Positions 3 to 55,774 of a stretch of 64,000 bases of DNA are shown one piece after another. The notes beneath the pieces are model-generated. The model saw only the letters and a program-made list of their open reading frames with translations, was not told the origin of the DNA and searched no databases. The DNA is from Micractinium sp. NFX-FRZ (Eukaryota > Chlorophyta > Trebouxiophyceae > Chlorellales > Chlorellaceae), in the NCBI GenBank assembly GCA_029339195.1, contig JAPTJF010000329.1, forward strand, positions 1 through 64,000, given 5' to 3'. The position numbers were made by a program, and so were the translations under genes. The first letter of the stretch is position 1. Each line of letters opens with the position of its first letter.

Positions 3-3000
3 CGGCCGCCACCCCCACGTCCGCCACCCCGGCCCCCTCCCCCGCGACCGCCCCCTCCCCGACCGCCCCCTCCCAACCCGCCATCGCCGCCACCTCCCCC
101 ACCCGTGCCGCCAGTGCCGCCTGCTGAGCCGCCGCCGCCGTCGCCCCCTCCCCAGCCGCCCAGCCCGCCGCCGGCACCCCCTCCCCCAGACCCTTACTTG
201 GGGTGTCGTGCAAAGCTGCCCCAGTGCACTGACTGCGGTGAGAGCCGTGGCAAGAATAGGGCTGTCTCGCTAAGAACGCAACCGGCTGGCAGCTGCAGCG
301 GCGGGATGCAGCGGCCGGCCGGCTGGCCAGCGCATTGTGCCAGTGCTCTGCCCACCACGTCATCGACCCATTGTCACAAGGCCGCCTGCGCTGGCCTGCC
401 TGCTACGTGCTTCCCCCGTTGCCCTTCTGGCCTGCACCCAGCATCATCTGCACTCTGGTCACCTGCATGCCCTCCCTCGCTTACCACCCGCTGCCCGCCC
501 GCTCAGCGCACTGCACTGGCACCAGGCGCCCTCCTGGCGCGTCTGCTGCTCTCCCCGCCACCTTGCTGCGCGCATACCCCGTTCTCTGTCCGTGCTCCCT
601 CCACCCTTGCAGCCCGAAACGCGGCAGACCCAACGTCCAAGTTCCTCTGCTCCAAGTGCGACCCCTGGTCTGTGCTGAAGAACGACACATACTTTGACAG
701 GGAGCAAATGGATTTTGTGGAGGAGCCCTACTGCGACGGCATCTGCTACTACTACAACAACTTTGGGGTGCTGTTCACAGAGGTGAGGGGCAATGCAACA
801 CCCGCTTTGGCTGGTGAAGGGAATGTAATGCACCCGGTCTGCTCTGCTGGATGAGCCGTACCGCAACGGCCTCTGCTAAAGCACAACACGGTTTATTGCG
901 CCGCACAGAGTGCCGGCCTGCGGCGGCGGCTGGCTGACTGTTGAGCCCATGCCTGATCCGGCCCTGCCCTCTGCAACGCCCGCCTGCAGGACAATGTCAA
1001 CCCTTGCCAGGCCTGCAACGGCTTGGCTGGGTGCACCACCTGCCAGCAGGGCTCTTATGGAGTGCCAGACTCGTACCAGCAGTACAGATACAACATGCCT
1101 GCTGTGGTCACGGCGTGCATGACATGCGGACATTGCGAGGTCAGTGCGGTGTGGTCAGCAGCACACATGCAGGAGGCATGCTGTGGTCACGGCATGCCTT
1201 GTTTGAGCGCATGTGGCAGGTTCAGTGCGTGTCATCCGCAGAGCAGGCGCAGCATGCCTGCTGTGGTCGCCTGAGGCGGGGGACACTGCCAGTTCATACC
1301 AGCGCACGGCACAGCAGGCACAGTGCAATGGCAGAGGGCAGAAGGTAGCGCACTGCATTCGCCAAGCGACTGCAGGCACGCACCTGACACCGCATGCCTC
1401 GCGTCCGCCTGCGCTTGCAACCCACTGGTCCGGCGCCTGCCCTCGCTGCTGCTCCACCCACATGTCCACCCAACCCACCCGCCTGGCCCACACCCGTGTG
1501 CTCCCCAACCACTTGCAGAGAGAAAAGTGCGGCTTGAGGGGCTGCTCATCATGCATGGAGGGCGGCGCCGGCGTGCTTGTAGCGGGCACCCTTTCCCCCA
1601 CAGACCCAGTGCTGTGCCTCACCGAGTTGTGTGAAGACAAGGGTGACACCGGGTTTGCGCCCACCGACGTCAACCGCACGGTGCACATGCCCGCCAGCCT
1701 GCACCTGTGGAGGTAAGTACGCTGGTGTACTTCAGTGTACATCAGTGCTTCAGTACTGTGCTTCAGTATGTCAGTGTACTTCAGTGCGAGCCACGGCATT
1801 CACCTGAACAAGACACATGGTGCACTTGCAAAGACCGTGGTGTGCAGGCCGGGCAGGCGGCTTCAGTGCTTGCCACACCCTGTGCGCCTGTGCCAATCAC
1901 CTGTTCTTTCCTGCAGAAGTTGTGCCGTGGTGTGTGCGTTGTTTCCTCTGCTCAGCTTGGGATGATGCCCAAGTGCTGACTCCCTCCCTGCGCGTGCCCG
2001 CCCACCTCCCCGCCCCTGCCGCAGCTACGCGCCGCACTGCCAGGAGACGGGCACCAGCCGCGCCTGTGAACCCCTGAAGGGCTGCACCGCCTGGTGAGGA
2101 AGGGTCTGTTGGCTGGGGAGGCCATCACAGTACATGTGGTGGCGCTGCCCCTGTATGCTTGGGCCTCTCTTCCTCATGGTATGGCTTGTGTGCCCGGTGC
2201 CTGCCTGCCTGCCTGTCGAGCCTGCCTGCCTGCCTGCATGCATGCATATGCATGCACCCCCTCTCTCAAACTGCCTGTCGCACGCGTACGCACGCTTCCC
2301 GATCTCACACTGCCCCTCGCGCCGCCTCCCCACCCCTGCTGCAGCGACCCTGGGCGCTTCCTGGCCCAGCACCCGCTGGTGGCCAATGCCTCCCTCTGCC
2401 AGCGCTGCGAGGGCTGCCCGCCCGCCCAGTGTGGCAGTTCGGGCTGTGCCTCCTGCCCCGTCCCGGGCTTGGGTGCACTCGTGGCCCTTGCCGAGTACAA
2501 GAATGCCACGGGAGGCGCGGTGTATGCCTGCCGCAACTCCTCGCTTCCGCAGGTGGGAGCACAGCGGGGCGGCCCGGCCTGGCTGGGGTTGCTGCCGAGG
2601 GGTTGTGTGCAGCGCAGGCTGAGGGGTGTGAGTGCGCACAGCACGCTCCCTGTGCTCTGTCCAGCATGCACGTGCTGTGCCTGCCTGCCTCCCCCGTTCA
2701 CCTACCTGCACTGCTACCCCTCCCCACCCCACCCTCCCTCCCCCTCACCTGACCCTCGCACCCTCGTACCCCCCTGCCCTCCCGCCCTACCGCCACCTCA
2801 CCCTTCCGCCCCGCAGGCGTTCAGGGGCCGCGGCTCGCCAGGCCTGCCCGACACCGCGCTCTGGCCGGTCTCAGAGTTTGGCGGCTGTGGCCCTGATGTG
2901 GGGGAGGTTATGCTGGACTGGCGGGGCAACAACAGCGAGCACGACCTCGCCTTTTCCAGCTGGTTTGACCAAGACCTGCAGACAATCGACTTCAACAGCA

Positions 3001-14200: not shown

Positions 14201-17200
14201 CCTGTCCCTTCCTCACAACAGACAGCAAAGAGAGGGCTGAGCATGCTCTCCACCCGCCCCACACACCTGCAGGAGGAGGTGCATGGCCAGCTCCACCACC
14301 CGCACCACGCTGCTGTTGAGCAGCGCCACGCAGGCCAACAGGAGCTGCGGGTAGAGCAGCGCCTTGGGCGGCTCCGCCAGCAGGCCCGCCAGCAGGGCAC
14401 GCAGCGAGCACAGCACCTCCACTGCTGTGTCCAGGCTGCTTGTGTCGCTGCGCCCGCGCCCGGGGGCCAGGCACTTGTGCAGGGCCGCCAGCATGGCGGA
14501 AGCCGACTGGGCACCCAGCACCGGGCGCAGCGCGCAAAAGGCCTGGTGCGAGCGCGATGCCGCGTGGCGGGAGCGGGCGCCGCACGTCCACCGCAGCGCC
14601 TCGGCGCACCACTGGTCCCGCAGCTCCGTGTCGTAAACAAAGCACTCCACAACTGCAGCAGCAGTGGAGCAGGGGGATGGGGTCAACATGAGTGCCAGCA
14701 CAGCGCAAGGGGGCACCACCACGGGTTCATAGCAAGCGCAGTGACAGTTGCTACAGTGACCGTTTGACACCAACAGACAAATGGGCAGCCGCAGGTGGCG
14801 TTGGAGGCTCATGGGGTGCCAGGAACTGTGTGATGGCAACCGGAACATAACAAGTGATGCATGGCATGCACTGCAGCTTGAGCTAAGTACATGGACCACC
14901 CCCTCCCCTACCTGTCTGCACAAACAGGGCCACAGCAGTTGCGCTTGGGACCATGGGGTGCGCCAGCGACGGCTGCTCGCGCGGCCACAGCTGCTGCCCT
15001 AGCCGCGCCTGCAGCTGGCCCACCACGTCCGCCACGCCCTGGCACTCTGGCGAGGGGGTGCCGGTGCTCTGCATGGTGGGTGGGAGAGCAGGCAGGGGTT
15101 GAAGGAGGGGAGCGGGAAGCAGGTAACATGGTGTGTGAGAGAGCAGGCAAGGGGTTGAGGAGGGTGGGCAGGGAGCAGGGGGGCCAGGGCGACTGGTATG
15201 CTGGCAATGCAGACGAGGGGACCGGGTGTTGAAGAGCGTGCCACAAGGCACGCCCCCTGAGCAGCCCGGCTCTTCTCATAGCGCTGGGCCTGCTCTCCCG
15301 TCTGCCTCCTCCACCCTGCCTGAGCCGCTTGCCCAACTCACCTGAGCCGCCTCCAGGTGCTTGAGTGAGAGGGAGTAGAGCAAATAGACCAGCAGCTGCT
15401 GACTGTCCCGCCGCACCGTTGGGTTGGGGCTGTCGGCGTTGAGCAGGCAGACGTGCAGGAGCTGCAGGGGGAGGGAGGCAGGTGGCATGTCAGCATAAAT
15501 ATGTGATGTATAAGCGATTGGGTTACACTGCCAGTGATCAGCAGGCAGGCGTGCAGCAGCTGCAGGGGTGGAAGGAGATGGTGACAAGGGTCCAGCAACC
15601 GCGGGAGGCGGGTGCTCTCTGCGGCCTGCTTGCTGCGCAGTTCAGGCACACAGCCATGCCGTCAGCATCGAGGCCGCGTCAATCAATATGACCTGCCTGC
15701 CCGCACTCCGCACCACGCATACATACACACTCTCCACCGAAACATGTCCACACACCCGCACCCGCGCCACTCCCATGCCACACCACAGCCACAGCCACAC
15801 ACCTGGGGCAGGTGCTGCCGGAACTCCCCATAGCGCTCGCAGCACACACAAGTCACAGCCCTTCCCCGCAATGCAAGCAATCAGGAGAACAAGTCGCACC
15901 TGGGGCAGGTGCTGCCGGACTCCTCGTCGTGGTGCTCAAAAGCTGCACAAAGTCACCAAACCCCATACTGAGAACAATGCCAGAATGAATCGCACCTGGG
16001 GCAGGTGCTGCCGGAACTCCTCGTCGTGCTCGTAAGCCACCTCTGTGAGCAGGCTGAGCGCCATCTCTGGCCGCGACAGCGGCAGCCTGCGGGGGCGCGC
16101 AATGCATGTAAGTCGCATTTCAAGGCGTAAGGCAGCAAGCGCCAGCGGCGGCCTGTGAGGGAGTGCATGGCGCACTGTCAGAGTGTGTGCGTAGGGCAGA
16201 TGTGGGCAGGCAACCGTGGGGTGCAAGTGCAGGCAGCGCTGCCGTGCAGCAGGCAGACCCGTCGCAGGGCGCAACAGGCGGAGCCTGAGCAGGATGCAGC
16301 AAGCAACTCTCCAACGCCGCATGGCCCCTCCCGCCCCCCACACCTGCGCCCGCCGTCGCCCCCGCCGCCGCCCCGTTGGCTCATGCTGTTCTGTCGGCTG
16401 CCAAAGCTGCTGCGAGTGTCAGAGGGCACTCTAAGAAGGGAGCTGCCGGTGCCGGGCCCACCCCCACCCATGGCGGCTGCTGCTGCCGCGGCAAAGCTGC
16501 CGCTGCCGTCGCCGCCGCCCATGCCGCCGCCGTCTCCCCCCCATGTCGACTGCGACTTGACGAGCAGCTCAAACATGCCCACCCGCCGCCCAAAGCTGCC
16601 CTGCTTGCCGCCGCCGCCGCCGCTCCCGCCGGGCGTGCCGGGGCGGGAGCCGCCGCTGCCGGCCTCGCTGGCAAGTCCTAGAGCCAGGCTGCCAGCGGAG
16701 ATGCGGTGCAGGGCGGGCAGCTGGGGGTGCTGCAGGCTCGACTTGGTGCGCTTGTGGTGGTACTCCAGAATCTGCAGGGCGGCAGCCATGTGTTGCAAAG
16801 TTTGGACGTTAGGCCTGCATTTTCTGGGGTCGGGCTTGGTGGTGCTATTGGGCCTGCAGGGAAAGAGCAGGGTTTGATGTGCAAGTCAACTTCATCTGCC
16901 AACCAAGCTTCATTCAGGGTCGTCAAAGGTAACTCTCCCATCTGCCATTCCCCTGAAGCCCATTGCTGTGTGCCCCACCCCACCTAACCTTTGGCGTGCC
17001 GTCTGCCGGGGTGGCAGGCGAGTAGGGCGACCCGACGTCGTCCAGCTCAGCAGGGTCGGGCTGCTCAATCTGCTGGAGCGCCTCGTGCACCAAGTGCCCG
17101 ATCGTCTGCTTGGGGGCCACCCGGGAGAGGTAGAGCACCACCTGTGCAGCAGACAGGGTGGGGAGCAAGAAGAAGAAAGCAGCAGTGAGTCGACCAGCTG

Positions 17201-20200
17201 GAGCGCTCGTGGCACCACATGCCCAAATTCTGCTTGGAGGGGCGCCACACGCAGCATAGGGAGGGCCGGGAGGGAAATATGAAGAACAACACGACAGAAT
17301 GGTAGGGGTGCCCAACCGTCTCCCCAGGGGCTCCCCAGCACCGCGGCCCCCCAGGCCCACCCCACCCCACCCACGCACCTCCTTGCCGGTGGCCCCCGCC
17401 ACGTCATCGGTGCCGGCCGCTGCAAGGTCCTCCTTCAGTCCCCGCTCGATCAGGAAGTTGAGGGCGGGCACCATATTGAGGCGGTTGGCGGCCAGGGTGG
17501 CCCACAGGCGCTGTGCATGAGGGGAAGGAGGGGGTTGAGCGGTGAGCACAGACGATAGGTAGCTCAAGAGAGCGGGCCGAGTGTGTGTGTGTGTGTGTGT
17601 GAGGTGAGGCCCATGCCCCGCCTGCCCTGCTGTGCCTCCCTGGCTGCATGTTTGCACCTGCCCCACTGCACTGACAGCAGTCCTGGCTGTACTCGCAAGC
17701 TGCCTGCTGCCAAACTGCTTGCTGCCAAAAACAACTGCCTGCTGCCTTTTGGTAGCAAGCAGCTCACCAAGCCGCCTGCTGCCTCATGGCAGTGAGCAGC
17801 TCACGTGCCATGATGGCTCGGCTCACCTCATATGCCGGCCGCTCCGCCTGCTGTGCTGTGATGTCGTAGAGTGAGTTGAGCAGCACCTCGCTCCACTGGC
17901 CCTCCCACTGCACGTGTGCAAGGCAGTGGCGCAGGGGACCGTCAGGAACGAATCGATCGGGGGAAGGACCCAGCCACCATGCACAGCCTTCCACTCACTC
18001 CCACGCCACAGTTGGGGATGTTCTACCACCACACTCTTGCCTGCGTGGGTATGGTGATGAACCCTAGCCAGGGGCACAGGCTGAGCAGCGCGTCGGGCCC
18101 GCCCCGGTTGGCCAGCTGGCGGGAGAGCACTTCGATGGCCACGGCGTCACTGCAGGGTGAGGCCAGAGGTAAGGCGCCACGTGCCGAGTCAGCACGACAT
18201 CACCAGCTCAGCAAGCATGGCATGCCAGCTCAGCAAGCACTCACCACAGCTCGTGGTGCTCCTTTGCCAGCCTGGCGGACAGGCGCAGCTGGTAGGACGC
18301 GTAAGAGTTGGCCAGGCTGCCCACCACCTCAGTGCCGTCTGCACCCACTGCATGGGGGGGGGGGGCAGCAGCGGGGGCGCCGCCGATCGCCTCGTGGTGC
18401 TCGCTGCACAAAAGGGAGGGGGGAATGGGCGAGGTGAATGATGCAAGCTGAGGTGGGGTGAGGTGTGCAGGAGCAGCGGCAGGGGCGGCGCTCGCCACTT
18501 CACAATGATCAGTCAAGCACAAGGGAGGTGAGGTGACAGAGGATGAGGCGGGGTGGAGCGAGGTTGGCAGGCAGCGGGCAGAGGCGCCTGGCCATGCCGC
18601 CCACCTGCACTGTAACGCTTCCCCCAAGCGTGCCGTGCCAGCTGACCTAACATCCCCCCTGTTCCGCCCCCATCCCACCTCTCGTCCCGCGCTGCCTCAC
18701 CTGGAACCCGCCTGCTTGCCCCCCCAAGCTGGCCCAGCAGCCTGTCTGTCCCGCCCCCTGCCCAAACTCCCTGTGTGACCACGTGAAAGCCCCCTCACCT
18801 GTACCGCGCCTCCTTGCCCCACGCGCGCCGCGCCAGCTGGCTCAGCAGCCCCCGCGCCGAGTCCCGCACCTCCCTCCGGGGATCCACCACTTTGTGGAGC
18901 ACCAGAGAGACGACCACGTGCTCGGGCAGGGGCAGCGGCTTGGAGGCATACACCTCTGTCAAGACCTGCAGAGACATCAGATAGAGCAAGAGAAAACGAC
19001 TGCGAAATGAGAGGCTTCATAACTTTGTGAGGCAACTAGGGAGGCCACCACGTGCCCAGGCGTGGGTTACACCTCTGTGGGGATTGCACAGAGGCGAGGT
19101 GAAGTGGCACAGCAGTCAGAATATCATCAGTGCATCATGCTAAGAAGCACCAGGCGAGCCGCCACATGCAAATGGCAGGTGTGCCTGCGATTTGGTGACA
19201 CCATTTCGCCCCAGGCAACTCACACACGCACACACACACACTACTAGACCCGCCCTACACCGCCAGCTGACGGTTGTGCTACCCAAGGATCCCGCCAGCA
19301 GCAGCCTCCCAAAAAGCCCGGCACAATTCCACCCCATAATCAAAGCAACTCCCCCGCCAGAGCTCAGGCCTTCACACACCCGCCCACCTGAACGTACCCC
19401 GCCGCACCTGCTGGGAGCCCGTCAGCAGCAGCGCCCTCCCAGAACTTGACACAAGATTCACAGTATGTTGAGGTACACACGCACAGTCACCTGGAAGTAC
19501 CACGCCGCCACATGCTGGTTGGCCGAATGCAGGAGCCTGCCCCAGCCTCCCCCAGCCCCCAGGACTCAGCACACACAATCCCCAGAATCTCGAACTGCAC
19601 ACCACCACGCACACCCCCGCCCCACCTGGAAGTAACTCGCCGCCACCTGCTGGTTGGCAGAGTAGGACGATCCCACAAAGACGGGCGCCAGGTCAGCATT
19701 TCCCTGCAGGGGCAGAGAGCAGGGCGCCCCGGGCGGGGGCAGGGGAGGGTGAGCAGCGAGGTGAGGCGGGAGGGCGCAGGAAGGGGGATGGGCGCGCAGC
19801 GGAGGGCATGCGCCCACTTGGATCAACCAATGCCTCCGTGGCCGTCAGGTCGGTGAGCGCTCAGCACCCCGCTCAGAACTCCCGAACGCCGAGCGCCCCC
19901 GCAAACACAGCAGAGACAGCCCCTGCCGTCCCCGGCCCGTCTCTCCGCTCCAATGCTGCGTACCTGCAGCAGATTGGTGAGCGCGCTGCGCGCCACGGCG
20001 TCCTTTGGAGGCGCCCAGTCTGCGAGGCGGGCTGGCACGGGGGGCGCCGACAGCATTCGGTCCACCCAGGCAAACACTCGGCCCTGCAGGCAGGCGGGTG
20101 GGCAGGAAGGGGGAACGGAACATCAGCAGCGTGGGCAGGCTTGTGGGAAGGCACGCAAGGGCAATCGCTAAGGGAGTGCCAGGGAGGTGGAGGCATGGAC

Positions 20201-37059: not shown

Positions 37060-37099
<40 letters not shown>

Positions 37100-37537
37100 C
37101 CAGAGCAGCATCCAGTGCAGGGAGGGCAGCGGGCACGACCATCCATGCAGCAGCAGAGGCAGCAGGCAGTGCAGCCGCCGGCGGTGTGGCAGGCGTGGCA
37201 GCAGCAGCAACAGAAAGAGCAGCAGCAGCAGGCAGTGCAGCCGCCACGACAGCAGCAGCAGCAGCAGCAGCAGCGGACCGAGCAGCAGCAGCCATTACCA
37301 GGGAAGCTTCACTCTGCCGAGCGCAGCAGCGGCGCTATGCCGGCAGGCGGGAGGCAGCAGTCGGAGGATGGCGCAGGGCCCAGCATCAGCGGCGGCAGCG
37401 GCTGGGGGGCAGGCGGTGCACCTGCTACGGCCATGGGAGCCTCGGTGGATGGGGCTGGTCCGAGCAGTAGAGGACCAGCAGGCGAGCAGGGGCCTCCCCA
37501 GCAGCAGCAGCAGCAGCACCGGCCTCGCCACCAACAA

Positions 37538-37580
<43 letters not shown>

Positions 37581-37894: not shown

Positions 37895-37960
37895 AACTGT
37901 TCTTGCGCGTGTGAGACCCTGGCTTGTCGTTTTCTGGAGAGTGCCACTGTGACGGCTCCA

Positions 37961-38973: not shown

Positions 38974-41900
38974 CTACCTCCGTGCGTCAGGCCGCACCGC
39001 CTTGATGCTGCGGCTGGCACCCGCTGCTGCACCGCCAGCCGTCTTGACCGCCGCGCCTCCCGCCGCTGCCAGCGCTCCCCTCTTGTTGGCATTGGCAGCT
39101 CCGCTCTGGTCCTCCTCCCCCTCCTCCCGTGGGGTGACGCCCGCGCTGCGCAGCTTGCCTGCGACCACAACGGCAGCCCCTGCCGCCAGCTGCAGCGCCT
39201 GCGCCTTGGCTGGGCTCAAGCCCAGCAGGCTGATGCGCCCAGCAGCTGCGCCCGTGGTGCGGCTCCGCCGGTACAGAGCATCCTGTGCCTCCCACCACTG
39301 CCGCAGCATCACACGCCTGCAAGCGGCATGGCCAGCCACCGGGAGCGGTTCAGGGCAGGAGGGCAGGCCAGCCTGATTAGGGCTGCGGCTGCTCTGCCGA
39401 ATGCTGACCTGGCACAGGTGGTCTGCCACGTTACACCAACCCCGTCCTTGATGCCTGCCCCACTCCCCGCCAGGCTGTTTCACAATCCTGCTTACATCAC
39501 CCGCCCTCCAGCTTGCTCATCCTCTTGTGTCCCCCACCTGTGCGCCTTGTGGAAGTCCAGTAGCATGCGGATCTGCGCCCAGCGCCGGCGGGCCAGCCGC
39601 TCCACGTACCCCCCTTCGCCGCCGCCCTGGCCGGCGCCCTGCTTGGCTTTTGCAACAGCTGCGCTGGCGTGGGCTGCCAGCATCATTGCCCGCATCCCCT
39701 CATCCATGCTGCAGGGCGAGCGGGGCAGGGCAGGGGCAGGGCACGGTGCATGGGCAGGACCTCAGGCTGGACTGGACCTCAGGCTGGCAGCAGCAGAGGC
39801 AGACGTACTGAGGGGGGCGCTGCCAGAGTGATTATGTGCGCCACATCACGGCAAGTCCGGATCCAGGAAGAAGGCCAGCGGCGGGCATGCATGGCAGGCA
39901 GGCTCGGCGGGGCGGCGCTTCCATACAACCCGCGCCGTGACAGCTAAAAACACCCAAGTTCCCAGCCAGCCAAATACAGCACCTGCACCTCGCTGGGGCT
40001 CTGGACCTCACAACAGCCTGAGCACCAGCCAGCAGCAGCAGCAGCAGCACCACCAGCAGCAGCAAGGTGCGCACCTCTGATCCTGCCGACGCAGGGTGAC
40101 CACAATCACGCCCACATCTCCCACCACGTCGCTCCGAATCAGCGGCTCCGGCAGCTGCCCCTCCTGCCGCGCTGCCGCCTCCTCTTCTGCCGCATGATGG
40201 GAGGCCCGAGGCGTGGCAGCTGGCGCAGGTGCAGCCGGCAGAGGCGGCCGCGCCAACGGCAGGGCCAACAGATCTGCCACTGAAGGGGGCAGCTCCCCGC
40301 TGCTGCCGTTGCTGCCGATGGCACCCCCGTCCCCGCTGCGCTGCTGCTGTTGCATCCTGGCCATTTGGCGTGCTGCTTTCTCTAGACTCCAGTACACCAG
40401 GTGCTCTGCCGTGTTGGCTGCCTGCAGCAGCGCCGGGCTAGGTGCGTCCTGCAGCCCTGCTGCCGCTGCGGCTGCCGCCATTGCAGCCGCGCGCTCCAGC
40501 TCGCGGCAAGCAAACTGCAGGCAGGCAAGCAGACAGGCAGGCAGGGGATGGTGGGCAGGCAGGGGTGCAGGGTAACAGGCAGTGCCAACACTGCGTGTTG
40601 TCACGCCAAGACTCCCCCCGCCCCCTCCAAACATCACAGTTATGTTACTTTTGTTCACCAATCCTCCCAGCCATAAACCTCCCCATACAACACAGCCAGT
40701 GAGACAGCAAGGCCTCTCAATTGAGGGCCCACCTGTGCCTGCCTGCTTCCCTTTCCCTCAACACACACGAAACACACAGCAAGCAGTGCGGCAGCTTGCC
40801 TTCTCATGAAAGTGCGCCCTCAGCGCGCAATCGGCGGGCCCCACCAGCCGCCAAAAGGCGCTCGAACCCAGCACCAGGTGCTGGTCAGTGCCTGTGAGGG
40901 TGTGGTCGGTGGCATATGCCTCACAGATGAGTGCGCCGCTGCCGCCTGCGTAACAGGAAGCATGTGGGGGCAGGGGTCGAGGATGAAAGGCCTGTGGCAT
41001 ATGCATCACAGATGTGTGCACCGCTGCCGCCTGCGGGGGCGAAATACATGAAAGCAGGCGGGCAGGTGTCATGGGGCAGGGTGGGGTGCCCCTGCTGCCT
41101 GATCGTCAAGGAACAACTTTCTGACACAGCACACACCACACTGACATTCACACTCGGCTGGCACATGGCAGCAGCAGTCTTCCGCCCCACCACTGCATGG
41201 CACTGGTCGCCCACAGGGGCAGGCTGTCATGCGCTGACCTGCTTGCTGCTTGGCTTCCCAGAACCCCAGAGCTCGCGTGTGCTCCCCCGCAGGCTCCCCC
41301 GCCAGCTCCCGCTCCCCGGCTCCGTTGCCGGCGCGCGGCGGCGTGGCCTCGCCCGGCGCCCGCCGCTGAAGGCGCACAAGCTCCTCCCGATTCCTGAACA
41401 CCAATGTTATTTGACAGCAGGGTCACACGCAGCGGGTGGGGTGTTAGCCAGCAGCAGGGTCGCACGCAATGGGTGGAGCAACGCGCAGGTGGGCGTTGAG
41501 ACCAGGAGGGTGGGTAGCTGCATGCAGCAGTTGATCAGTTGCATGGCTGCCATGAGCTTGTGGTCACGATTTCACATCGGATCAGGGTGGCAAACCATGG
41601 CGGTATGCCCAGCACAGCGGCGGGGGGTTAGGTGCGCGCCTGATCACCTACACTCTGTGCACGCCTCACCAGTACCACTCAGCACCTGCCAGCCGGCCCA
41701 TTTACCAACCGCATAGCATGCCCACCTGGTGGTGTGGTCTGCTGTGAGGAAGAAACCCTCCGGTGCCTTGGCATTGAAGCTACCCGAAATGCGGCTGAGC
41801 AGGCAGTGCGCAGCACCCACGTTGGCACAGTAGCACCGCTGGCTTCCCAGCTCGACCAGCAGGAGCACCGCCGACGCCCCGCTGCTGGCCTTGGTCTGCA

Positions 41901-45535: not shown

Positions 45536-47795
45536 TCAGAGCTCATCCCGCTTGACACTGCCCGCAGTAGCGGTGGCTGCTGTGCCCGCTTCCAGCTGCT
45601 GCTCCCGCCCCTCCTCGCCACCCGCCGCCTCCGACCCTACTGCCCCTGCCTCTGGGCTGCCGACTCCCTCTGCCGGCACAGAGGCCAGCGGGCGGGTGCA
45701 GTGCTTGGCTGTGGTGAGGCAGAGGAAGTCGGAGGCGCTGTCGATGTCCACCTCACCGTTGCGCAGTGCGTGGGACAGGTCGTCCTCGTGCCTGCAGGGA
45801 CAGTGTGGAAGGGAACGCAGGCGAGTGGGCGCACAAAGAGCAGGCAGTGAAGCTCGCGGGGGTGGGCGCTGAAGGATGGTGGGGCAGGGCAGAGCGGTTG
45901 GTGCAGCCAAAGAGGGCGGTGGACGGGGGCCAAAGAGGGGGAAGGAGGCGGGCACGAGGCGGCCACTCAACATGACAGCTTTCTCCGTCCATTCATACCC
46001 CTGCTCGACTCCCCCTCCCTCCCACGTGCATCCAGGTCCCCAAGAGGCCATGCCAGCTCCAAACGGCCATGGCAATGCTGATCGGCTTTCCATCCCCTCA
46101 CCCAACTTTTTGTAGGCAAACCCCAACATAAAGCCAGGGCCTACACCCCCTCGGAGCTCCCACCTTTCCAGCAGATCGTGGCAGAACTTCAGACATAAAG
46201 CAAGGCACATGCACCCTCGGACCTCCCACCTTTCCAGCAGGTCGTGGCAGAAGTTCTCCAGCTCCTTGCGCTGCTCCTTCCTCATGTGGATGTTGTAGTT
46301 GCGGTTGATGTTGAGGTCCGCTGCGCAAGGAGGGTACAGAAAGGGACAACATAATAGGACGCGTCAGGGAGGGCAGCAGGCACGGGGACGAAGACAACAA
46401 TAGCTCATCTGGCAGCTGAGCTAGCCGCAAGTTGTGAGGCCAGCTGCACATGCCAATCAACCACTTGGCCTGCCCCCCAATCGCCCCCGCACTTCCTCCA
46501 TCAGATGGCCTGCTCCACACACCAGAACATGGAACGCACGCAGCCTGGCTGCCGTCACTCTCCACAGCTCAGTGGCAGCCCTGCGTTCACAACCCAGTTG
46601 CACCCCCTGGGGCGCACCGGAGCGTGCCCAGCGTGCCGCCTCGCTGCCGTTCCTCTCCACCAGCTCGTAGGCAGACATGCCGTCACACAAGTCTTCCAGC
46701 AGGTGGATCACACGCAGCTCGCTCATCCTGCAGGTGTAAGGGAGGCAGTGCACGGCGTGTGTGTTGGTGTATGTGTTGTGTGAGTGTACCAGCTAGCTGC
46801 ACAGGTCCCCCAGCAGAAGAATGGCGCCCAGATCCCTTAACGTGCAAAGAGATTGGCGGAATCGCAGGATTGAAACGGTTGGCGTGAGCGTCGTTGCTGC
46901 CGAAGCGGCAGCAGCAGCGCCCTGGTGCACGACAGGGCGGCAGGGCGATGCGGCGCATGGGCCGCCACACAAGCAAGGCCCAGTACTGGTGCCCCCTCCC
47001 CCCCTCACTTGTAGTCAATGACCTTCCCCCAGCGCTTCCCCTCCTGCACGCAGCGGGCACAGCACAGCACGGAGGCGCGCCGGTAAGTGGCCCGTCGGTG
47101 GGGGCTGCGTGACAGCGGCACACACATTCCCCCTGCCCCGCCCGCCAGTGCCCCCTGGCAATCGCTGGCAGACCGTCGCAGGCAGGCAGCTGCTGCGTGC
47201 CGCCTCCCCAGCTGCAACCACTGCTGAAAAGTTTACGCAAAGGCACATCCAGCTCCTTCCGCCCCTGCCATTCGCCCCTGCCGTCCACCTTGTCCAGCCG
47301 GTGCCTCATGTCCAAATGGTTGCTGCATGGGCAGTGCAGGGTGGTTACGATGCATTGAGCTTGAAGTCAACAGTCTGCGCACATCCACGGATGTATCCCA
47401 TCTGCTGTCATCAGCTGGGGCCCCTCTGCTTGCTCAATTTCCCGCCCCCCTACCGTGGTACCTCCTCCTCCAGCTTCTTTGTCAGCACATCCTGCAGCCA
47501 AGGGAGAACAATATTTGGCACAGTAACAGTGAATAATATGTGGGAAGTCCGCGCAGGCCCACTCGGTTCGGGGGAGCTGCTGGCGCCGCCGTCTCGCTTC
47601 CGGGTGGCGGCGTCCCGCCTGCCGCTGTGGCTCGTCCCTTGCCCCGCCCTTGCCCGGCTCGTCCCTGCTCACCGCCACCGCACGACAGGCCGAGCATCTA
47701 GCCCGCATGCTGCTGCGAGCTAGGGCAGCAGGGGCGCAAAGCAACAGCAGCAAGGCTGCCACCGCCAGGAGGCCGGTCAAGGCGTGGCGGGCCAT
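45536..47795 (-). CDS. Canopy/MIR-interacting saposin-like ER protein (DUF3456), C-terminal RDEL
   Basis: Seven exons, 47795-47673, 47491-47454, 47322-47289, 47043-47009, 46727-46618, 46320-46230 and 45791-45536, close in frame at about 228 aa. A signal peptide (LTGLLAVAALLLLLCAPAAL) precedes the first cysteine pair (CSACRAVA). Then come RNHLDMRHRLDKEGKRW, GKVIDYKMSELRVIHLLEDL and CDGMSAYEL, the diagnostic order of the Canopy domain, with further cysteines in NFCHDLLER and CLTTAKHC for the saposin-type disulphides. The protein ends KRDEL, a KDEL-like ER retrieval signal. By family, Canopy proteins are ER-resident folding factors or co-chaperones for membrane receptors; the client in an alga is unknown. 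Exons 2-4 are only 38, 34 and 35 nt, and phases force this arrangement. Confidence 0.83.
46140..46265 (-). repeat. Tandem copy (about 70 bp) of Canopy exon 6 tail plus donor
   Basis: The real exon 6 end (plus-strand CTCCCACCTTTCCAGCAGGT at about 46223) is repeated at about 46157 (CTCCCACCTTTCCAGCAGAT) with flanking ACATAAAGC-A-AGG-like sequence also shared, giving a unit of about 70 bp. Confidence 0.85.
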
Positions 47796-48110
47796 TGGGG
47801 CGGCGCTTCAATAGCGCACCCCACTGTAAAACACTTCAAGCACATCAAACGCCCACATGGCCACTTCGCTGCCCTGCTGCGCAGCAGCCAGAGCGCAGCA
47901 GGGCGGGCAGCCATTTGCAGGTGGTGCTGCATGCGTCAAGCAGCATTCCCTTTCAGAACGCCTCGCAGCGACGACCCCTCGCGCCAGCCAAGGTCGGAGT
48001 GCAGGCCTCCCCAGCTGTAGGCAACGGCACGACTTACGGCAGCAGGGCCTCACCACCGCTGGCAAGCGAACTTGGCACCCGCGAGCCACATTTTGCAAGC
48101 CCATCCCGTC
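47796..48110. promoter_or_regulatory. Divergent promoter region (Canopy / NAD(P)H dehydrogenase)
   Basis: This 315-bp space between two start codons on opposite strands presumably carries both promoters and 5' UTRs. No defined element was recognised. Confidence 0.45.
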
Positions 48111-51100
48111 ATGGCGACCGCGCTCCACAATTCCGCTCGCCCGCTGGTCCAGCAGCAGCGTGGGCCCGCCCGGGCTGTGGCCGCAGCGCCTCGCCGAGGC
48201 GGACGCAGGCTCAGCTGCCGGGCTATTGCCGCGCCAGAGGTGCCCCCAGCCACCCAGGTGAGCCGCTGCACCGGGTTGGCGCCTGCGCTGGCGGCGGCGG
48301 CGGCAGCCAAGCAGGTAGCAGTGGGCGGCGGTGCACTAAAGGCCGCTCGATGCAATGCCAGCCTTATTAATGTCCTGCGAAAGTCAGAAACACTGTTACA
48401 GCTGGAAGATGCGCAGCGTCCGACTTGCAATGCCGCCGCCCGCCGCCCTCTGTTGCCAGAATGGGTCCGCCGCGCCGCAGAACGGCGCCACCCCCAGCAG
48501 CGGCCTGCCCTCGTTTGGCAAGGAGGCCATGGGGGTCAATAGCAAGAAGCGGATCCTTGTGCTGGGGACAGGTGCGGGCAGCAGGGTTCGTGGTCAACGG
48601 GACAAGCAAGCGGGCGGGCCTGTGTGGTCCCATGAGGATGATGTGGGCATTCAATGCACTGAATGCCAGCTCCCTGCAGCAACAGTCTGTCATGCATGGT
48701 GCCCGGCTCAGCTGCGAGGTATAGCAGCCTGCTCATTGAGTGGGTGGCCGCTGCTGACGGTGTGCTGCGCCGGTCCACGCAACGCGTCCACTGGCCTGCC
48801 CCGCTTCTCCACCGCCCCCCTCCTGCAGGCTGGGCTGCCATGAGCTTTGTGAAGGCATTTGACGAGAGCATGAAGGAGAAGTACGAGCTGGTGCTGGTGT
48901 CGGTGAGTGGCGGCTGCGGCTGATGTCGGTGGCTTGCGTCAAGCGTTCGCCGAAGAACAACGAGCGCAAGCGCGGGGGAGAGCAGGGGATGGGTTTGCCT
49001 GGGCGGAAAAAACAGTAAAAAAACATATCCTTGCTCCCCCTGCCTCCAATTCCTTTGCAGCCACGTAATTACTTCGTGTACACGCCTTTGCTGCCCGCCA
49101 TGTGCGCTGGAACTGTGGAGGAGCGCTCAATCGTGGAGCCCGTGCGCGCGGTGCTGGGCACCAAGGTGAGGTTGCCAGCCGTAACAGCTTCCATTGCGTC
49201 GTGCCTGGCACCGCTGCATTGGATTTTGCATCACGTGGGTTGCAGTCAGGGCTGTGGGGCTGGAGAAGTGGGCACTATATTGCCGGGCCGGTGCGCCCAA
49301 ATCTGTCAGCGGCATTTTCGCACCTGCGACGCAAGTTCCTCAGGCCTTGTGCACCGGCACGCCGCACATTCTGACGCGGGGTGCTGCTGCTGCTGCTGCT
49401 CGCCTGCTGCATCCGTGTCCCTGCAGGGCAAGTTCTTTGAGGCCAAGTGCACGGACATCATGCCGGAGGAGAAGAACATTGTGGCCTGCTTCCCTGGTGA
49501 GGCGCGCCTGTGCCCTGTGCCCTTTGCCCTTTGCCCTGCCTGCAAGGTGTGCGTCTCCCGCCTGGGCTTGGGTGGGTGGACAGCAGCATGAGCACCTCAT
49601 GCCTGAGCAGGGCAGCGGAGCCTGCAACGTGCGGCTCGCGCCTGGGGCTTGGGAGGGCGGACAGCTGAGCAGGGTTACGCCTGAGCCGGGCAGGAGGGGT
49701 GTTGGGGGCAGGGGAGCTTGTGTGGATGGGGCCGGCAGGGCATTGTGCTGGAGGAGCAGAGCAGGGTGGCCTGCATGTTCGAGTGGGGCGCTGGGGGATA
49801 TGAAGGGGCACCGATGCGGGGAGGGGACGGGCACGGGCAGTGGAGGCAGGAGGGCACGCGGGGGCTGTCGAGGGAAGCAGATGGCAGAGTCACCTCGGCA
49901 GCACCCAAATGCCAGCTTCCACCTCAGGCCTCCGCCCGCGCACCCCGCGCATACATGTTCTGCCCAACGTCCCAACCCGCTGCCTGCCGCCCTGCCTCCC
50001 AACCTGACTCCCTGCCTGCTGCCCTGCATCTTGATGTGACGCCCTGCCTGCCGCCCTGCCTGCCCGCCTGCAGAGGACGCCGGCTTCCCGGAGGCCTGCT
50101 TCAAGATCAGCTACGACTACCTGGTTGTCGGCGTGGGGTGAGCCGACGGCCTCCCCTCCTCCCGTGTGCTGGTGCTTTGTATCGGTGGCGCACGGCAGCG
50201 CAGCAGCAGCTTGCAATGCGCGCGTGGGTGGGCTGAGAGCTGCACCTTCACCTGCTCAGGCGTGCCGCCTGGCGCAGCGGTGTTGTGACCAAACGGACGT
50301 GCCCATCCGGCTTCCAGCCTGGCGCCCCCTGGGCTTCTTGCACACTCCCGCCTGCACACTCCCGCCTCGCTCTCACCCCACCCCTCCCCTCTCCTTCCCC
50401 TCCCCCTGCAGCTCCATCAACAACACGTTCAACATCCAGGGGGTGCAGGACCACACCATGTTCTTCAAGACGGTGGAGGACGCCTCCCGCCTGCGCCTCC
50501 GCATCTCAGAGTGCTTTGAGCGCGCCGCGTTGCCGCAGACCACCGCCGAGGTGGGTGGGTGGGTGCACATGTGGTGTGATTGTGGACTGTAGGGCAGAAG
50601 TGCCTGCGCTGCTGTGCAACTGAGAGTGCTTTGAGTGCGCTCCGCTGCCGCAGACCACCGCCGAGGTGGGTGGGTGCCCATGGCTAAGGGTTGTGCTAAG
50701 GGTTGTGGACTGTAGGAGGGAGGTGCCTGTGCTGCTGTGCATCTCCAAGTGCATTGAGCACGCTCCGCTGCCGCAGACCGCGGCTGGGCGGGCGCTTGGT
50801 TGGCACCAAGGCGACTGGCAGGCTTTGGGCGCGCAGGGGCGCAAGAGGGCGCTGTCCCTTGCGATGATTGGCGCACTGCTCCCGCCCTCTGCCGCACCAC
50901 ATGAAGCCACACAGCACTGGTGCTTCCCTTTCCCCACTCCCCGCCCGCCCGCAGGAGCGCAAGAAGCTGCTGTCGTTTGTGATTGTGGGCGGCGGCCCCA
51001 CGGGCGTGGAGGTGGCTGCTGAGCTGCACGACTTGATCACTGAGGACCTGGTCAAGCTGTACCCCGACCAGGTGAGCTGGCCAATTGCCATCGCCTGCAT

Positions 51101-54100
51101 CGATAATCAACGGGCACTGATCTAGCTGCAGTGTGTGTGGGGTGTGTGTTTGGGGGACAGGTGGGCAGGACGGGTGCGCGCGTGGCCCCTGAGCTGCACT
51201 CCGACCAGGTGAGCTGTCAAAGTGCCGTCGACTAAATTGACAGCTGTCGGGCATTCAGCTGGCTGCAGCGTGGGTGGGGTGGGGTGTCACTTGTACCCCG
51301 ACCAGGTGAGCTGCCAAAGGGTATGAAGGCAGCTGCAGCGTGTGCACGGTGTGTTTGGGACAGGCGGGCAGGACGGGTGTGCAGCGGTGTGCTGGCCGGG
51401 GTGCAGGGGTGGACGCTGAGCTGTGCGGCCTGAGCAGTGGAGAGCTGAGTGAAGTCATTGCCCCGGTGAACTGAGCGGTACTCGTACAGCCTGGGGGTGG
51501 CAGAGAACGCTTTTCCCTGCACCCCTGCACCGCCTGCCTCTCTCCTCACGACAAGCTTTGTGAGCCGGAGTCTTCAATGCTGACACACTGAGTGCCCGTG
51601 CACCCCTGTTCATGTCATGCTGCAGGTCCAGGATGTGTCCATCCGTGTGGTGGAGCTGATGGATCACGTGCTGTCGATGTACGACCGCGCCATCGGGCAG
51701 TACACCGCAGGTACGGCGGGCAGTACAGTACAGTCGGGCAGCACAGCCCGAGTGGAAGGATGCTGGCGTGTTGATGTGCCTGTGGTATTGGGCAGTACAC
51801 CGCAGCTGTGATGAGAGCCTGCCACGGCGCGAGAGCCGTTTCCTCATCTGCATCACACGCCACCGCTGCCAGCCCTGCTTGCCATCCCCACCCCTCCATC
51901 CCTGCCACTCTCCCTGCACCCCTGCTGCGCGCTTCAAGCGCAGCGGCATCCGGCTCAAATTCCCACACTCCCACGCATCTGCTGCCTATGAGATATATGC
52001 CTCAATTTGCACCCTTTGTCCCCCTTCTTCACTTCTTGCAGAGCGCTTCAAGCGCAGCGGCATCGAGCTGGTGCTCAACTCTCGCGTCAAGGCGGTGGGA
52101 CCCGACACCGTGACGGTCGTCGACAAGCAAGACAACGTGAGTTATGTGTCGACAAGCAGGGGCTTGGTGCCGCCTGCCGCCGGCTTTGAGTGCTGGCGAG
52201 GTGGTCGTGTGGTGGCGACAGGGTGTGCTGGGCACCTGGTTCTAATCACGGTGTTGTGTGCCTCGGCCCCCTGTTTGCTCCTTGGAAGGGACAGCCTTTT
52301 TTTGAGGATGAGGTCACCTGTGGTGCCTGCTGCCAGGGGCGTTTTGCCCACCCCCATCCCCACGGTTGTGATTGGCTTGCTGGGTTCAAGGCTGGCTCCC
52401 TGGAGGAGTATGGCAGGTCTTTTGGCTCCTAGGGTTTGGTTTGCGGATGTCTGTTTTTCTACGCCAACATCTAAACCCCAACCCTGGCCCCCTGCAGGAG
52501 TACGAGATCCCCTTTGGCGCCTGCGTGTGGGCCACCGGCGTGGCCATGCACCCCGTGGTGCGCACCCTGTCGGAGAAGATTGGAAAGGACAAGCAGGTGG
52601 GTGGGTGGGCGGGGTGGGCGAGCCTCCAGTGGGCCAAAAGCAAGGTGGCTAACAAGCAGTCGGGTTGCCCAGGCAGGGGCGGTACGAGTGGTGCTGGTTG
52701 GTGCGGAGAAGCTAGGCGCGGGCACGGTACGGCGTTGTGTGCGTGTGTGTGTGTGTGTGTGTGCGCTTGGTTTCCTGCTGTGCGCTTGCACTGGCGAGGG
52801 GGCGCTCCTGTGCTGAGGGCAGCGTGCAGGGGGCGAGCGGCCACCCCGCCCCCGCCCCTGCCCCTCTTCCCTTGCCCCAGCGTCGCCAACCCACACATGC
52901 ATGGCCTAAACCCCATGACCTCCCCCTCCCCAACCGTCCAGAACCACTTCCGGTCCGCCGTCACCGACGAGTGGCTGCGCGTGAAGGGCAGCAACGGCAC
53001 CATGTTTGCGCTGGGGGACGCCGCCACCATCGAGCAAAACGGGGTGGGTGGGTGGGTGGGCACGCCGGCATGCCGTCACACACGTGCCTCTGCTCGTCTT
53101 GATGAGACGCAACCCCCAGCGTGTGTGTTGTGCGTTCTGTGCTGTAGCATCGAGCTGGCCAACACAAGGCGCATCAGCTTTCAACTGCTGGCTGACACAG
53201 TTGGACCACACACAGGGATCATTGCACACACACACTGAACAACAACAGGTCGCCTGATTGTTGGCTGTGCCTGCGTCATCACCCGCCTTTTGCTTCTTGC
53301 CTTACCTGCTCTGCCTGCCGCAGGCCGTGGCCAAGGCAATGAGTTGTTTGACAAGTATGCGGCCACTCACATGCACTGAACAACAGCACATTGGTTTGAC
53401 TGTTTTCTTAGTTTTGCCTCTTGCTACTGACCTGCTCTGCCTGCTGCAGGCGGTGGCCAAGGCCAACGAGCTGTTTGACAAGTATGCGGCCACCCACAGC
53501 GACGGGCGGCTGACGCTGGAGGAGCTGCAGCAGCTGATGCGGGAGGCGAGCCAGGAGTTCCCCCACCTGAGGGAGCACGCCACCTTCCTGGACGGGTGAG
53601 CCTGCCGGCTGGGTGGAGGGATGGCTTGCTGGCGGGCGGGCTGGCTTGCGGGATGCCTGGCTGGCTTGCGGGATGCCTGCCTGGCTTGCCCTCACGGCGG
53701 TGTGTCTCCAGGGTGGGCGGTGGGCGGCTGTGGCGGGGGGAGCACAGGGGTGGGGCGTGTTGCACCTGCGGGGGCATGCGACCAACCCCATTGGATGGGA
53801 TGAAAGGCGGGGCAAGGGACGTTCTTTGTGGCAGCCAAGCCAACGGAGTGGCGGGCTGGTGCTCCCAACACCCTCCTCTTTCCCCTCTCCAACCCGCACT
53901 GCACGCTCCGCTGACCCCCACCGCTCTCTGCCTTCACGCACGTACCCTGCATGCCCCAGCCAACCTCCTGCTCTGCCCACTTTAATGCTCCCATGCTTGC
54001 AGCAAGCTGGGATCCCAGCGGTTTGGCGGGCTGGTGTTCAACGCCTTCCTGGAGGCCAACAAGGACAAGGCCAACGTGAGCGTGTGGCTGAGCTGGCGGG

Positions 54101-55774
54101 CTGTGTGGGGGCAGTGGCGGGCGCGGGTCGGGTGGGTGGTGGGGGGCTGGACGGCCGCCTGGACTGTCTGCCCGTCCCTTTTATTGTTTTCTTGTACCGC
54201 ACGCTCGCCTGCTGCACCACCTGCTCCCTTCCCCACTGTACCGTTAGCTCAACCCTTGTAGTGCCCCCCTCGCCTCCCCACTGTACCGCAGATGTACCGC
54301 GAGCTGAACATCGACCCCACCTCCACCCTGTCCCGCGAGCAGTTCTCCAGCCTGCTGGGCAACATCGACAAGGGGCTGCGCGCCCTGCCAGCCACTGCCC
54401 AGGCAAGTGGGCTGACTGTGGGGATGAGTGTTAAGGTTATCGCCCTGAGATCCTTTTGGTGTGGGCAGGGGCGGCGAGGAGCATCAAGCATGCAATGGCT
54501 GCCCCGCTCGGCACGCGAGCTCTCCAGGCTACCTGCGCCTGGGGCTGAAGACGTGTTGGGGAGGACCGTGCCCTGCCAGCGTGTGCTGCTGCTGAATCGC
54601 TCCCCCCATTTTTCGCACATGTGCTCAATTGCTGGTGCGTGTGTGTGTGTGCCTCCCATGCTTTGCAGGTGGCGCGGCAGCAGGGCGAGTACCTGGCCGA
54701 GGCGCTGCGGGCGGCAGATGGGCGTGTCGACGGTGCGCCTGCACCCGCCTACTAGCGCCTATACATGCGCCCGCGCTTGAACCAGCGCCTGTGCCTGTGT
54801 GCCCATGCCTGTGCGCACCTGCCCCACCCGGCCTCCACCTGCGCCCCTGCGCCCCTGTGCCTGGCCCTCCCCCCAACGTCGCCCCCACCCCCGGCCGCTG
54901 CAGAGCTGCCCAAGCTGGCCCCGCAGTTCAAGTACAGCCACAAGGGTAGCATGGCATACGTGGGCGGAGGTGCGCGCTGCTCTGTGCAAACTGAGCATGC
55001 TGGGACCTGCTGTTGTCTCGCCTGTGCCAGCGCCCCACCTTGTGCGCGTGAGCAGCGGTCCTGCCACCCCGCCGCCTGCTGCCGCTCTCACCGCTCTCCC
55101 TCCCTCCGCGTTCACCTCATCTCCCTCCCCCTCCCCCTCTTCATGTCTCCTCCCTCCCCCTGCTCCATCTTGCTCCGTAACCTCCCTCCCCGCTCCCCAG
55201 CACTCTCCCCCATCCCTTCATCCCCTCCCCCGTCCTGCCCCCCTTCCCGCCCCTCTCCCCCCTGCCCCCCCTCAGACCGCGCCGTGATGGACGTGCCCCA
55301 GGTGGGCCCCCTCATGGGCCTCACCGCCGGCCTGGTGTGGCGCGGCTTCGAGACCTGGTCCCAGATCAGCTTCCGCAACCGGGTGAGGCAGGCAGCAATC
55401 ATTTTGATTCCCTCGACTTGGTGGCAGATGTGTAATAGCATAAATGATAGCTGTGCGGGTGGGGCTTCGGGGGGCTGGCCGCCATGTCAGGTTCCGCAGC
55501 CGGTTTCGTGTCCTGTGCGCTGTGCCCTGCCGTGCCTTCCCGTCTCCCCGGAAGCCGTCCTGCCCCCCTGCCCGTGTCCTCCGGCTTGCTCGCCCCCACC
55601 TCCTCCCTGTTCCCATCTGCTTACAACTCCGGTCCTGTGGCCCACGACTGGGCCCGCACCCAAATGCTGCGCCCCGGCCTCCCGTTCCACTTTTGAACAC
55701 GCCCTCTGCAGATCCTTGTGGCCAACGACTGGGCCCGCACCAAGCTGTTTGGCCGGGACACCTCGCGCGTGTAG
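48111..55774 (+). CDS. Alternative (type II) NAD(P)H:quinone dehydrogenase
   Basis: Nineteen exons, 48111-48257, 48460-48571, 48829-48902, 49061-49165, 49427-49496, 50074-50137, 50412-50550, 50955-51071, 51626-51710, 52042-52136, 52498-52596, 52942-53043, 53450-53595, 54003-54075, 54292-54402, 54669-54732, 54904-54969, 55276-55382 and 55712-55774, close in frame at about 612 aa. After an Arg/Ala-rich organelle-targeting N-terminus, the FAD site is [18 protein letters not shown], followed by [20 protein letters not shown]. The NAD(P)H site is [17 protein letters not shown], the flavin-binding acid lies in [12 protein letters not shown], and the end is the family's [16 protein letters not shown] segment in exon 13 ([11 protein letters not shown]) looks like a degenerate EF-hand at the place where NDB-type enzymes have one. 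It transfers electrons from NAD(P)H to quinone without proton pumping. Mitochondrion versus plastid cannot be decided here. Intron 15 has a GC donor. Confidence 0.93.
50500..50795 (+). repeat. Three tandem copies (period about 118-120 bp) of dehydrogenase exon 7 tail
   Basis: The real tail (GAGTGCTTTGAGCGCGCCGC at about 50508, donor 50551) recurs at about 50626 (GAGTGCTTTGAGTGCGCTCC) with an intact GCCGAG/GTGGGT donor, and at about 50748 (AAGTGCATTGAGCACGCTCC), which is more decayed. Confidence 0.88.
51055..51330 (+). repeat. Three copies of dehydrogenase exon 8 end and donor
   Basis: CCCGACCAG/GTGAGCTG at the real junction (51071) is repeated at about 51207 (TCCGACCAG/GTGAGCTG) and about 51304 (CCCGACCAG/GTGAGCTG). 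Downstream intronic sequence (GGCTGCAGCGTG..., GGACAGGCGGGCAGGACGGG) is duplicated as well. Confidence 0.85.
51915..52085 (+). repeat. Copy of dehydrogenase exon 10 head
   Basis: The real exon 10 start (GCGCTTCAAGCGCAGCGGCA at about 52044) has a copy at about 51929, about 115 bp upstream, also preceded by a pyrimidine-rich tract. Confidence 0.85.
53280..53500 (+). repeat. 126-bp tandem duplication over dehydrogenase exon 13 acceptor
   Basis: The real acceptor and exon start (CTGCAG/GCGGTGGCCAAGGCCAA at 53449) is preceded by a very similar block ending GCCGCAG/GCCGTGGCCAAGGCAAT at 53323, with TTGTTTGACAAGTATGCGGC also conserved. The copy's reading frame is shifted by a missing base. Confidence 0.88.
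55620..55745 (+). repeat. Copy of dehydrogenase last exon head
   Basis: CCTGTGGCCCACGACTGGGC at about 55634 echoes the real exon start CTTGTGGCCAACGACTGGGC at about 55715. The period is about 82 bp, and CCGCACC-AAG/A-TG follows in both. Confidence 0.8.

Follow-up and report, generated by a model that had tools for sequence, protein, structure and literature searches.

Tandem duplication at or near splice sites has been described before. A duplication across an intron–exon boundary created a new intron in the RdRp gene of potato (PMC4974935), and in Drosophila novel intron positions have been described, with tandem duplication of exonic DNA as a form of intron gain (PMC2891723). Small tandem duplications from the repair of staggered breaks, with fill-in by CST/Pol alpha-primase, are reported for mouse stem cells (PMC8355091), in a paper that also cites patch-mediated repair in rice (Vaughn and Bennetzen 2014). 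We have analysed a stretch of 64,000 nucleotides (the window; contig JAPTJF010000329.1) of the green alga Micractinium sp. NFX-FRZ, in which exon edges with their splice sites recur within the adjacent intron, for example in the genes for a type II NADH dehydrogenase (NDH2), FURRY and polymerase eta (pol eta). The pattern is real and extends beyond the window. The initial annotation of this DNA had proposed that local tandem duplications straddling the junctions leave decayed exon edges and longer introns behind, and the tests described below favour that reading; we put at roughly 0.85 the probability that introns here lengthen through tandem duplications, arranged head to tail, in which a unit of ~110 bp spans the splice junction.

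Since the potato case is published (PMC4974935), the duplication event itself is not new. That case concerned one gene and a new intron, whereas in the alga the events recur across the sampled genome, lengthen existing introns and, by the register test given below, give no sign of making new ones. A Rogers-type duplication of an AGGT exon segment is likewise a short tandem duplication that interacts with splice sites, but it duplicates exonic DNA and makes introns, and the alga has no register signal of this kind. The duplications born of break repair are, like those of the alga, direct, adjacent, head-to-tail and short, and are described as adding to genome expansion; the human-genome insertions in that work are < 100 bp (PMC8355091), whereas the algal units are 67–166 bp. 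In short, the events are known singly, and here they amount to a way in which the introns of one lineage often lengthen. Introners are dispersed mobile elements. They share with the present case the association of repeated sequence with introns in algae and differ in being dispersed, whereas the copies seen here lie close by and stem from the host exon itself. The near-identical dispersed copies typical of introners (a name found in PMC10487979) were absent for the array of NDH2 intron 7, the sole query, which matched itself alone in the genome (such counts being lower bounds).

Transposon-free intron growth is, in our judgement, poorly understood, and here its steps are visible in almost a quarter of the tested introns. 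Because each copy can be compared with a conserved exon that changes slowly, these steps could be dated. The copies are also natural decoy splice sites, making the family a test bed for the choice between near-identical sites, and they may mislead annotation, two public Chlorellaceae proteins appearing to include them as coding. The genome paper of C. variabilis may contain a remark on repeated sequence within introns; the pattern would then be less novel. No title or abstract in the literature searched, whose coverage did not extend to that paper (Blanc et al. 2010), describes the pattern, and the parts covered of the Coccomyxa genome paper, which gives intron length, hold nothing of this kind (PMC3446292).

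Direct repeats and exon-edge copies in the sampled genome

The window lies on contig 329 of a genome of 66.07 Mb in 838 contigs with 65% GC. Our sample consisted of the window and 20 ten-kb stretches from other contigs, 264 kb in all, and gene models came from an ab initio gene finder of our own, which covers both strands and had this DNA as its training set; its final run gave 55 genes, 530 exons and 475 introns with a median intron of 260 bp. Independently of these models, self-BLAST of the window found 38 repeat pairs, 37 direct and one a self-palindrome. The direct pairs are spaced 67–256 bp in 29/37 cases and 3.6–14.6 kb in the other 8/37, 7 of these 8 joining tandem gene copies at 56–64 kb. 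The 20 other stretches gave 47 direct pairs (40 spaced 50–250 bp and 7 spaced > 2 kb) and 5 inverted matches, all of them self-palindromes (distance 0), and a third-order Markov control of the same stretches gave 0 direct and 4 inverted matches. At a score of at least 44 and within 2500 bp, the 264 kb hold 78 direct pairs and, with self-palindromes dropped, 0 inverted pairs, the direct, adjacent and head-to-tail arrangement of small tandem duplications. Their spacing runs from 67 to 267 bp (61 at 67–166 bp, 17 longer) with a mode at 110–120 bp, and none at this score is spaced 300 to 2500 bp. Because BLAST may hide very short offsets, we wrote an independent ungapped seed-and-extend scan with a low-complexity filter; this found 60 segments, also with a mode at 110–120 bp and with 6 below 60 bp, against 0 in the Markov control. 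The upper limit to the spacing is firm, and the lower limit is partly set by detection.

By the gene models, 57 of the 78 pairs are exon–intron, 7 intron–intron, 8 exon–exon and 6 intergenic, compared with 32.4 exon–intron (SD 4.6) and 17.6 both-exonic pairs (SD 3.3) in a control with shifted positions; in some of the exon–exon pairs the predictor may have called a copy an exon. At 1452–1828 of one stretch (L013) there is a direct repeat array with a 113-bp period, whose alignment covers more than two units at 76% identity; it lies in DNA that is intergenic by the models, and so the process may extend outside genes.

In the edge test, the last or first 40 bp of each exon was aligned to its own adjacent intron, with a score of at least 26 taken as a match. 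Introns were used where both flanking exons scored at least 6 and measured at least 40 bp and the intron itself at least 100 bp, which left 298 of the 475 predicted introns and excluded 177. The comparison of intron/exon matches with shuffled pairs that the initial annotation had proposed as a check gave, on this sample, a copy of the intron's own exon edge in 68/298 introns as against 0.5% of mismatched introns, trimmed to at most the same length; with the own introns reversed, matches fell to 0/298 on the donor side and 4/298 on the acceptor side. At a score of 30 the count was 51/298, and 1/2980 (donor) and 0/2980 (acceptor) for mismatched introns. Both the window (25/82) and the other stretches (43/216) contributed positives. 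The result was replicated in 50 kb of held-out DNA (29 usable of 67 introns, the model having been fixed beforehand), where 9/29 own introns matched against 10/580 mismatched and 1/29 reversed, and 6/29 against 0/580 at a score of 30. Edge copies are present in 21 of 26 sequences, that is, the window and 25 stretches. The median intron is 390 bp with copies (n = 77) and 260 bp without (n = 250; p ~ 1e-12), a difference that is in part the copy's own length and the greater room for chance matches.

Each copy sits in the intron next to its exon, and the part of the exon that is matched is its outer ~60 bp. At the junction itself 14% of donor-side and 11% of acceptor-side segments match; the rates drop to 1.9% and 3.1% for segments that start 40 bp into the exon, and to 0/90 and 0/98 for those that start 140 bp into it. 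Matches elsewhere were few: 19/3012 in other, non-adjacent introns of the same gene, 4/440 in the neighbouring-side intron and 2/240 for the far edge of long exons.

The duplicated unit, its proposed origin and the rival readings

In the mechanism that we propose, a short DNA unit, mostly 67–166 bp with a median near 110 bp, would be duplicated head-to-tail. A unit straddling the junction would carry an exon edge (mostly 26–62 bp) together with adjacent intron, mostly at least 40 bp of it. The outermost donor or acceptor would stay in use, leaving the mRNA unchanged while the intron gains one unit, and the event would be nearly neutral because the outermost splice site still yields the same mRNA. 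The inner copy of the exon edge would drift into a decaying decoy splice site, and repeated events at one junction would give arrays of two or three copies. We infer an origin of the repeats in tandem duplication, the real edge being the copy that stays fixed; their source would be DNA-break repair, by staggered-break fill-in and end joining, rather than slippage.

The dimensions of the unit were taken from 46 edge clusters, a set that leaves out offsets above 175. The unit is 67–166 bp (median 111.5), in the short size class of small tandem duplications, and its exon part 17–82 bp (median 40.5), with 26–62 bp in the middle 80% of cases. On the donor side (n = 27) the intron part is nowhere shorter than 12 bp, with 44 bp as its 10th percentile; on the acceptor side (n = 19) the two values are 45 and 50 bp. 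With exon parts under 22 bp left out, the exon part fits uniform placement if the working splice site must keep 40 bp or more of intron beside it (Kolmogorov–Smirnov p = 0.53 donor, 0.19 acceptor), and on the donor side it does not do so without the 40-bp rule (p = 0.0004). A positioned mechanism, suggested by the narrow exon share, was dropped, the 40-bp intron requirement having removed the anomaly. On the acceptor side such a minimum is expected from the branch point and pyrimidine tract; for the 40-bp limit on the donor side there is no ready reason. Breakpoints are eroded in the cases viewed, and a young case at 4991–5308 of another stretch (L020) has three clean head-to-tail copies of ~115 bp each, intron flank included.

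The initial annotation had stated that copies drift with distance. Of 31 arrays of at least two copies, 18 have the higher score in the nearest copy, 11 have the lower score there and 2 show no difference, which bears the statement out only in part; this comparison admits scores down to 22, and many of its far matches are near chance (22–28). In 14 strong arrays picked by eye, in which both copies score at least 29 and the far copy is about twice as distant, the nearest is higher in 12, lower in 1 and equal in 1. Over all 57 exon–intron pairs, exon and copy differ at the first, second and third codon positions at rates of 0.110, 0.116 and 0.173. The corresponding values for real coding exons, from a pair of paralogs in this genome (AAE-like, a label from sequence appearance), are 0.109, 0.048 and 0.261; as the pattern of the copies is unlike this, they are without coding constraint, and their milder excess at position 3 agrees with drift in the exon. 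Neither this pattern nor the 17–82 bp of exon carried is that of tandem or mutually exclusive exons, whose copies are retained as coding. GT is retained in 20/31 donor copies and AG in 13/24 acceptor copies that reach the junction, which 19 further copies do not, and 10/31 donor copies score at least as high as the real donor. Selection against the decoy dinucleotides was considered, and since GT/AG retention matches that of nearby positions there is no case either way. The offsets are even modulo 3 (18, 20 and 19 for 0, 1 and 2).

Several observations weigh against tandem duplication of the simple kind proposed. Events straddling a junction number 48/53, against 32.6 expected from the length of each intron (0 of 100000 random draws reach 48), an expectation that uses a detection factor of 1.42 derived from simulation and chosen overlap limits; uniform placement simulated with the same detection and present intron lengths gives 49–55% straddling, and the introns concerned had a median of ~240 bp before duplication. 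Intron flanks beside recognisable exon copies are above the 95% control level in 14/55 cases, and duplication that includes intron is therefore directly visible in a minority only. The protection of the mRNA by use of the outer splice site is something we infer. The models come from a predictor trained on the same sequence, NDH2 being the only one compared residue by residue with orthologs, and the tandem gene copies of the window (56–64 kb) hold no clear fresh duplication. The excess of straddling events may stem from rapid turnover of introns, from ancestral introns that were shorter or from genuine targeting. The simulated share rises to 77% with ancestral introns of at most 200 bp and to 84–86% with at most 150 bp. 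Intron flanks decay fast, so that intron-only duplications would vanish from view earlier than the simulation allows. With higher indel rates in the simulation the junction excess remained. It is doubtful that duplications form preferentially at boundaries, for example where G-rich donors, C-rich pyrimidine tracts or co-transcriptional structures lead to paired nicks: this would explain the 48/53, but duplications of the same size exist within introns and between genes (5 and 4 of 64 clusters), rapid flank decay may hide those confined to introns, the excess is not significant against 85% straddling, as with ancestral introns all of at most 150 bp (P = 0.17), and the exon share agrees with a simple functional limit on the unit. 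We hold as equally tentative the wider proposition that junctions are hot spots of repair-born duplication in Chlorellaceae, introns growing outward from their borders in ~110-bp steps and keeping a legible, datable record of earlier exon edges, and that this is a main mode of lengthening in the family, common to Chlorella, Parachlorella and Micractinium relatives.

A model in which introns are born by duplication of exonic AG–GT segments, so that their ends resemble the opposite exon edges, also has tandem duplication near junctions as its raw material. In the register test of 298 introns, however, donor and acceptor flanks are no more alike in register than in the controls, 0/298 reaching 18/30 identities on either side. 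The end of the upstream exon recurs within the final 55 bp of the intron in 1/298, and the start of the downstream exon within its initial 55 bp in 2/298; intron gain by exonic duplication is rejected for this sample and seems to us very improbable. Somewhat less so, though still improbable, is a function for the copies as alternative or mutually exclusive exon edges or as selected regulatory decoys. The surviving GT and AG dinucleotides, the donor copies that match or beat the real donor, and the C. ohadii and P. kessleri annotations, which read such copies as coding, would suit this, but by codon position the mismatches do not follow the pattern seen in real coding exons, the dinucleotides are retained like their neighbouring positions, and the offsets have no bias to multiples of three. 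To chance similarity in GC-rich low-complexity DNA, or an artefact of gene finding, we give practically no credence: simple repeats are many and the predictor did call some copies exons, but repeat detection was independent of gene models, Markov controls are without direct repeats, and mismatched or reversed introns give 0–2% in the edge test, with 10/580 and 1/29, respectively, in the held-out DNA.

Relatives, paralogs and the cases within the window

Alignment of 119 NDH2 relatives to the Micractinium protein revealed 22 internal insertions of at least 10 residues. Three of these repeat the adjoining peptide with a score > 40, in C. ohadii, Parachlorella kessleri and Tetradesmus (15 residues; not Chlorellaceae), and a second insertion in P. 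kessleri scores 21. The C. ohadii and P. kessleri insertions map to the junctions of NDH2 introns 5, 8 and 12, where copies occur in this genome too, that at junction 12 being on the acceptor rather than the donor side; at the exon 8 junction it is the P. kessleri protein that repeats the peptide. These insertions are probably exon-edge copies of the intron annotated as coding. Among 12 FURRY relatives (53 insertions, of which those of named species were viewed) there were two in C. vulgaris, both low-complexity, and among 43 pol eta relatives (43 insertions; named or high-scoring ones viewed over the first 450 residues) named Chlorellaceae had no such repeats, so that the protein evidence comes from one gene, NDH2.

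Within the genome, the longer intron of the AAE-like pair carries a copy of the exon start (22/25 bases) and the shorter paralog intron does not; the latter, as taken, overran ~20 bp into the exon, and the sole match there (score 25) was that exon. The comparison is suggestive only, because the introns align poorly except at their ends, and a search of the same genome for closer AAE-like paralogs returned only the two known copies. In the window a region of ~3.8 kb is duplicated in tandem (56255–59951 and 60103–63982; 86% identity over aligned bases), with internal direct repeats of 219–256 bp in both copies and an 87-bp insertion in one. This insertion was examined as a fresh duplication and rejected, as it resembles neither flank. 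Two predicted exons of these paralogs have flat codon-position mismatches (0.150, 0.126 and 0.100), making the pair useless as a coding yardstick; with differences so even, the gene models may be wrong or the gene unconstrained.

The best protein matches are to Micractinium species (85% for NDH2, 78–83% for FURRY, with Chlorella second for both, and 78–80% over ~60% of the query for pol eta), and the host is thus a green alga of the Chlorellaceae, nearest Micractinium. The 12 window proteins are free of internal stops, as the method guarantees, and the four submitted to Pfam have NDH2, pol eta, TBPIP/Hop2 and DUF3456 domains, the last of which is linked to Canopy. The FURRY model is backed by homologs; PP2C-like and HRGP are names taken over from the initial annotation, and these gene identities are putative. 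Beyond the N-terminus, the NDH2 model differs from its Micractinium ortholog by one one-residue gap and five extra residues at the end of exon 15. This exon probably ends at a GC donor (CAG followed by GCAAGT, at 54400–54417), because the GT reading adds five residues that are missing in all six aligned orthologs.

When the 40-bp edge test was applied to unfiltered introns, copies were found in 30/108 introns and 5/12 predicted genes of the window, seven genes having none. Copies are present in 14/40 FURRY introns, including all five exons named in the initial annotation (9, 18, 23, 25 and 33), and in 7/18 NDH2 introns, again with all five (7, 8, 10, 13 and 19). Copies were also recovered, as claimed, in pol eta (6/10 introns, mostly weak, with scores of 27–29 and one of 42), the PP2C-like gene (1/7) and the Canopy-like gene (2/6), for which our exon numbering differs from the earlier one. 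Two further genes were less clear. For HRGP, BLAST pairs 1077–1188 with 1156–1268 at 72% identity, and the edge test gives 0/6 introns. HOP2 exon 3 is marginal, with 0/6 introns in the edge test and a best ungapped match of 19/21 bases at an offset of 190 (score 16, against maxima of 12–15.5 in 10 shuffles). Genes on either strand carry copies, as had been stated, the copies themselves being direct relative to the exon. The BLAST pairs behind the NDH2 exon 7 array are 50489–50656/50602–50779 and 50501–50541/50739–50779; the cases are collected in Table 1.

Table 1 Exon edges and their copies in the window (offsets in bp; positions are those of the window)
Feature	Position	Strand	Basis
NDH2 (type II NADH dehydrogenase) exon 7, 3' edge and donor duplicated	50412..50550	+	gene model, ortholog alignment
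NDH2 intron 7, two decayed copies of exon 7 edge, ~115 and 238 bp downstream	50602..50779	+	BLAST
NDH2 intron 8, copies of the edge of exon 8 with its donor, offsets 137 and 234	51192..51317	+	
NDH2 intron 9, copy of exon 10 start (52037–52064)	51923..51950	+	
NDH2, copy of exon 13 start and acceptor (53412–53498), 124 bp upstream, 88.5% identical	53288..53371	+	
NDH2 intron 18, copy of exon 19 start (55717–55741)	55636..55660	+	
FURRY, copy of exon 9 start (26852–26924) with acceptor, offset 118, 87.8%	26970..27042	-	
FURRY, copy of exon 23 start (20531–20580), offset 110	20641..20691	-	
FURRY, two copies of exon 23 end (20487–20533), offsets 104 and 213	20274..20427	-	
FURRY, copy of exon 18 end (22692–22765), offset 218	22474..22545	-	
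FURRY, copy of exon 25 end (19623–19661), offset 135	19488..19526	-	
FURRY, two copies of exon 33 end (15993–16032), offsets 97 and 193	15800..15931	-	
FURRY, same intron, copy of start of exon after 33 (15442–15470), offset 98	15540..15568	-	
FURRY, copy of exon 6 end (28220–28313), offset 119, 72%	28101..28200	-	
Pol eta, tandem copy of intron tail and exon start (33214–33321), offset 84	33130..33246	+	
Pol eta, copy of exon start (33941–34003), offset 124	33817..33875	+	
Pol eta, copy of exon end (35576–35628), offset 118	35694..35747	+	
PP2C-like, copy of exon start (40909–40950) with acceptor, offset 85, 92.9%	40994..41035	-	
Canopy-like, near full-length tandem copy of exon end and intron head (46193–46256), unit 67 bp	46126..46190	-	
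HRGP, weak tandem copy (72%) of end of exon 990–1143, offset 79	1156..1268	+	BLAST, not edge test

Repeats of other kinds also occur in the window. Long CAG/glutamine-rich tracts are found in the C-terminus of pol eta (37048–37591) and in an unnamed protein, g49 (44096–44413), and inside the FURRY gene, at 20992–21057, there are three perfect tandem copies of a 22-bp unit, the only perfect three-copy array in the tandem-repeat list.

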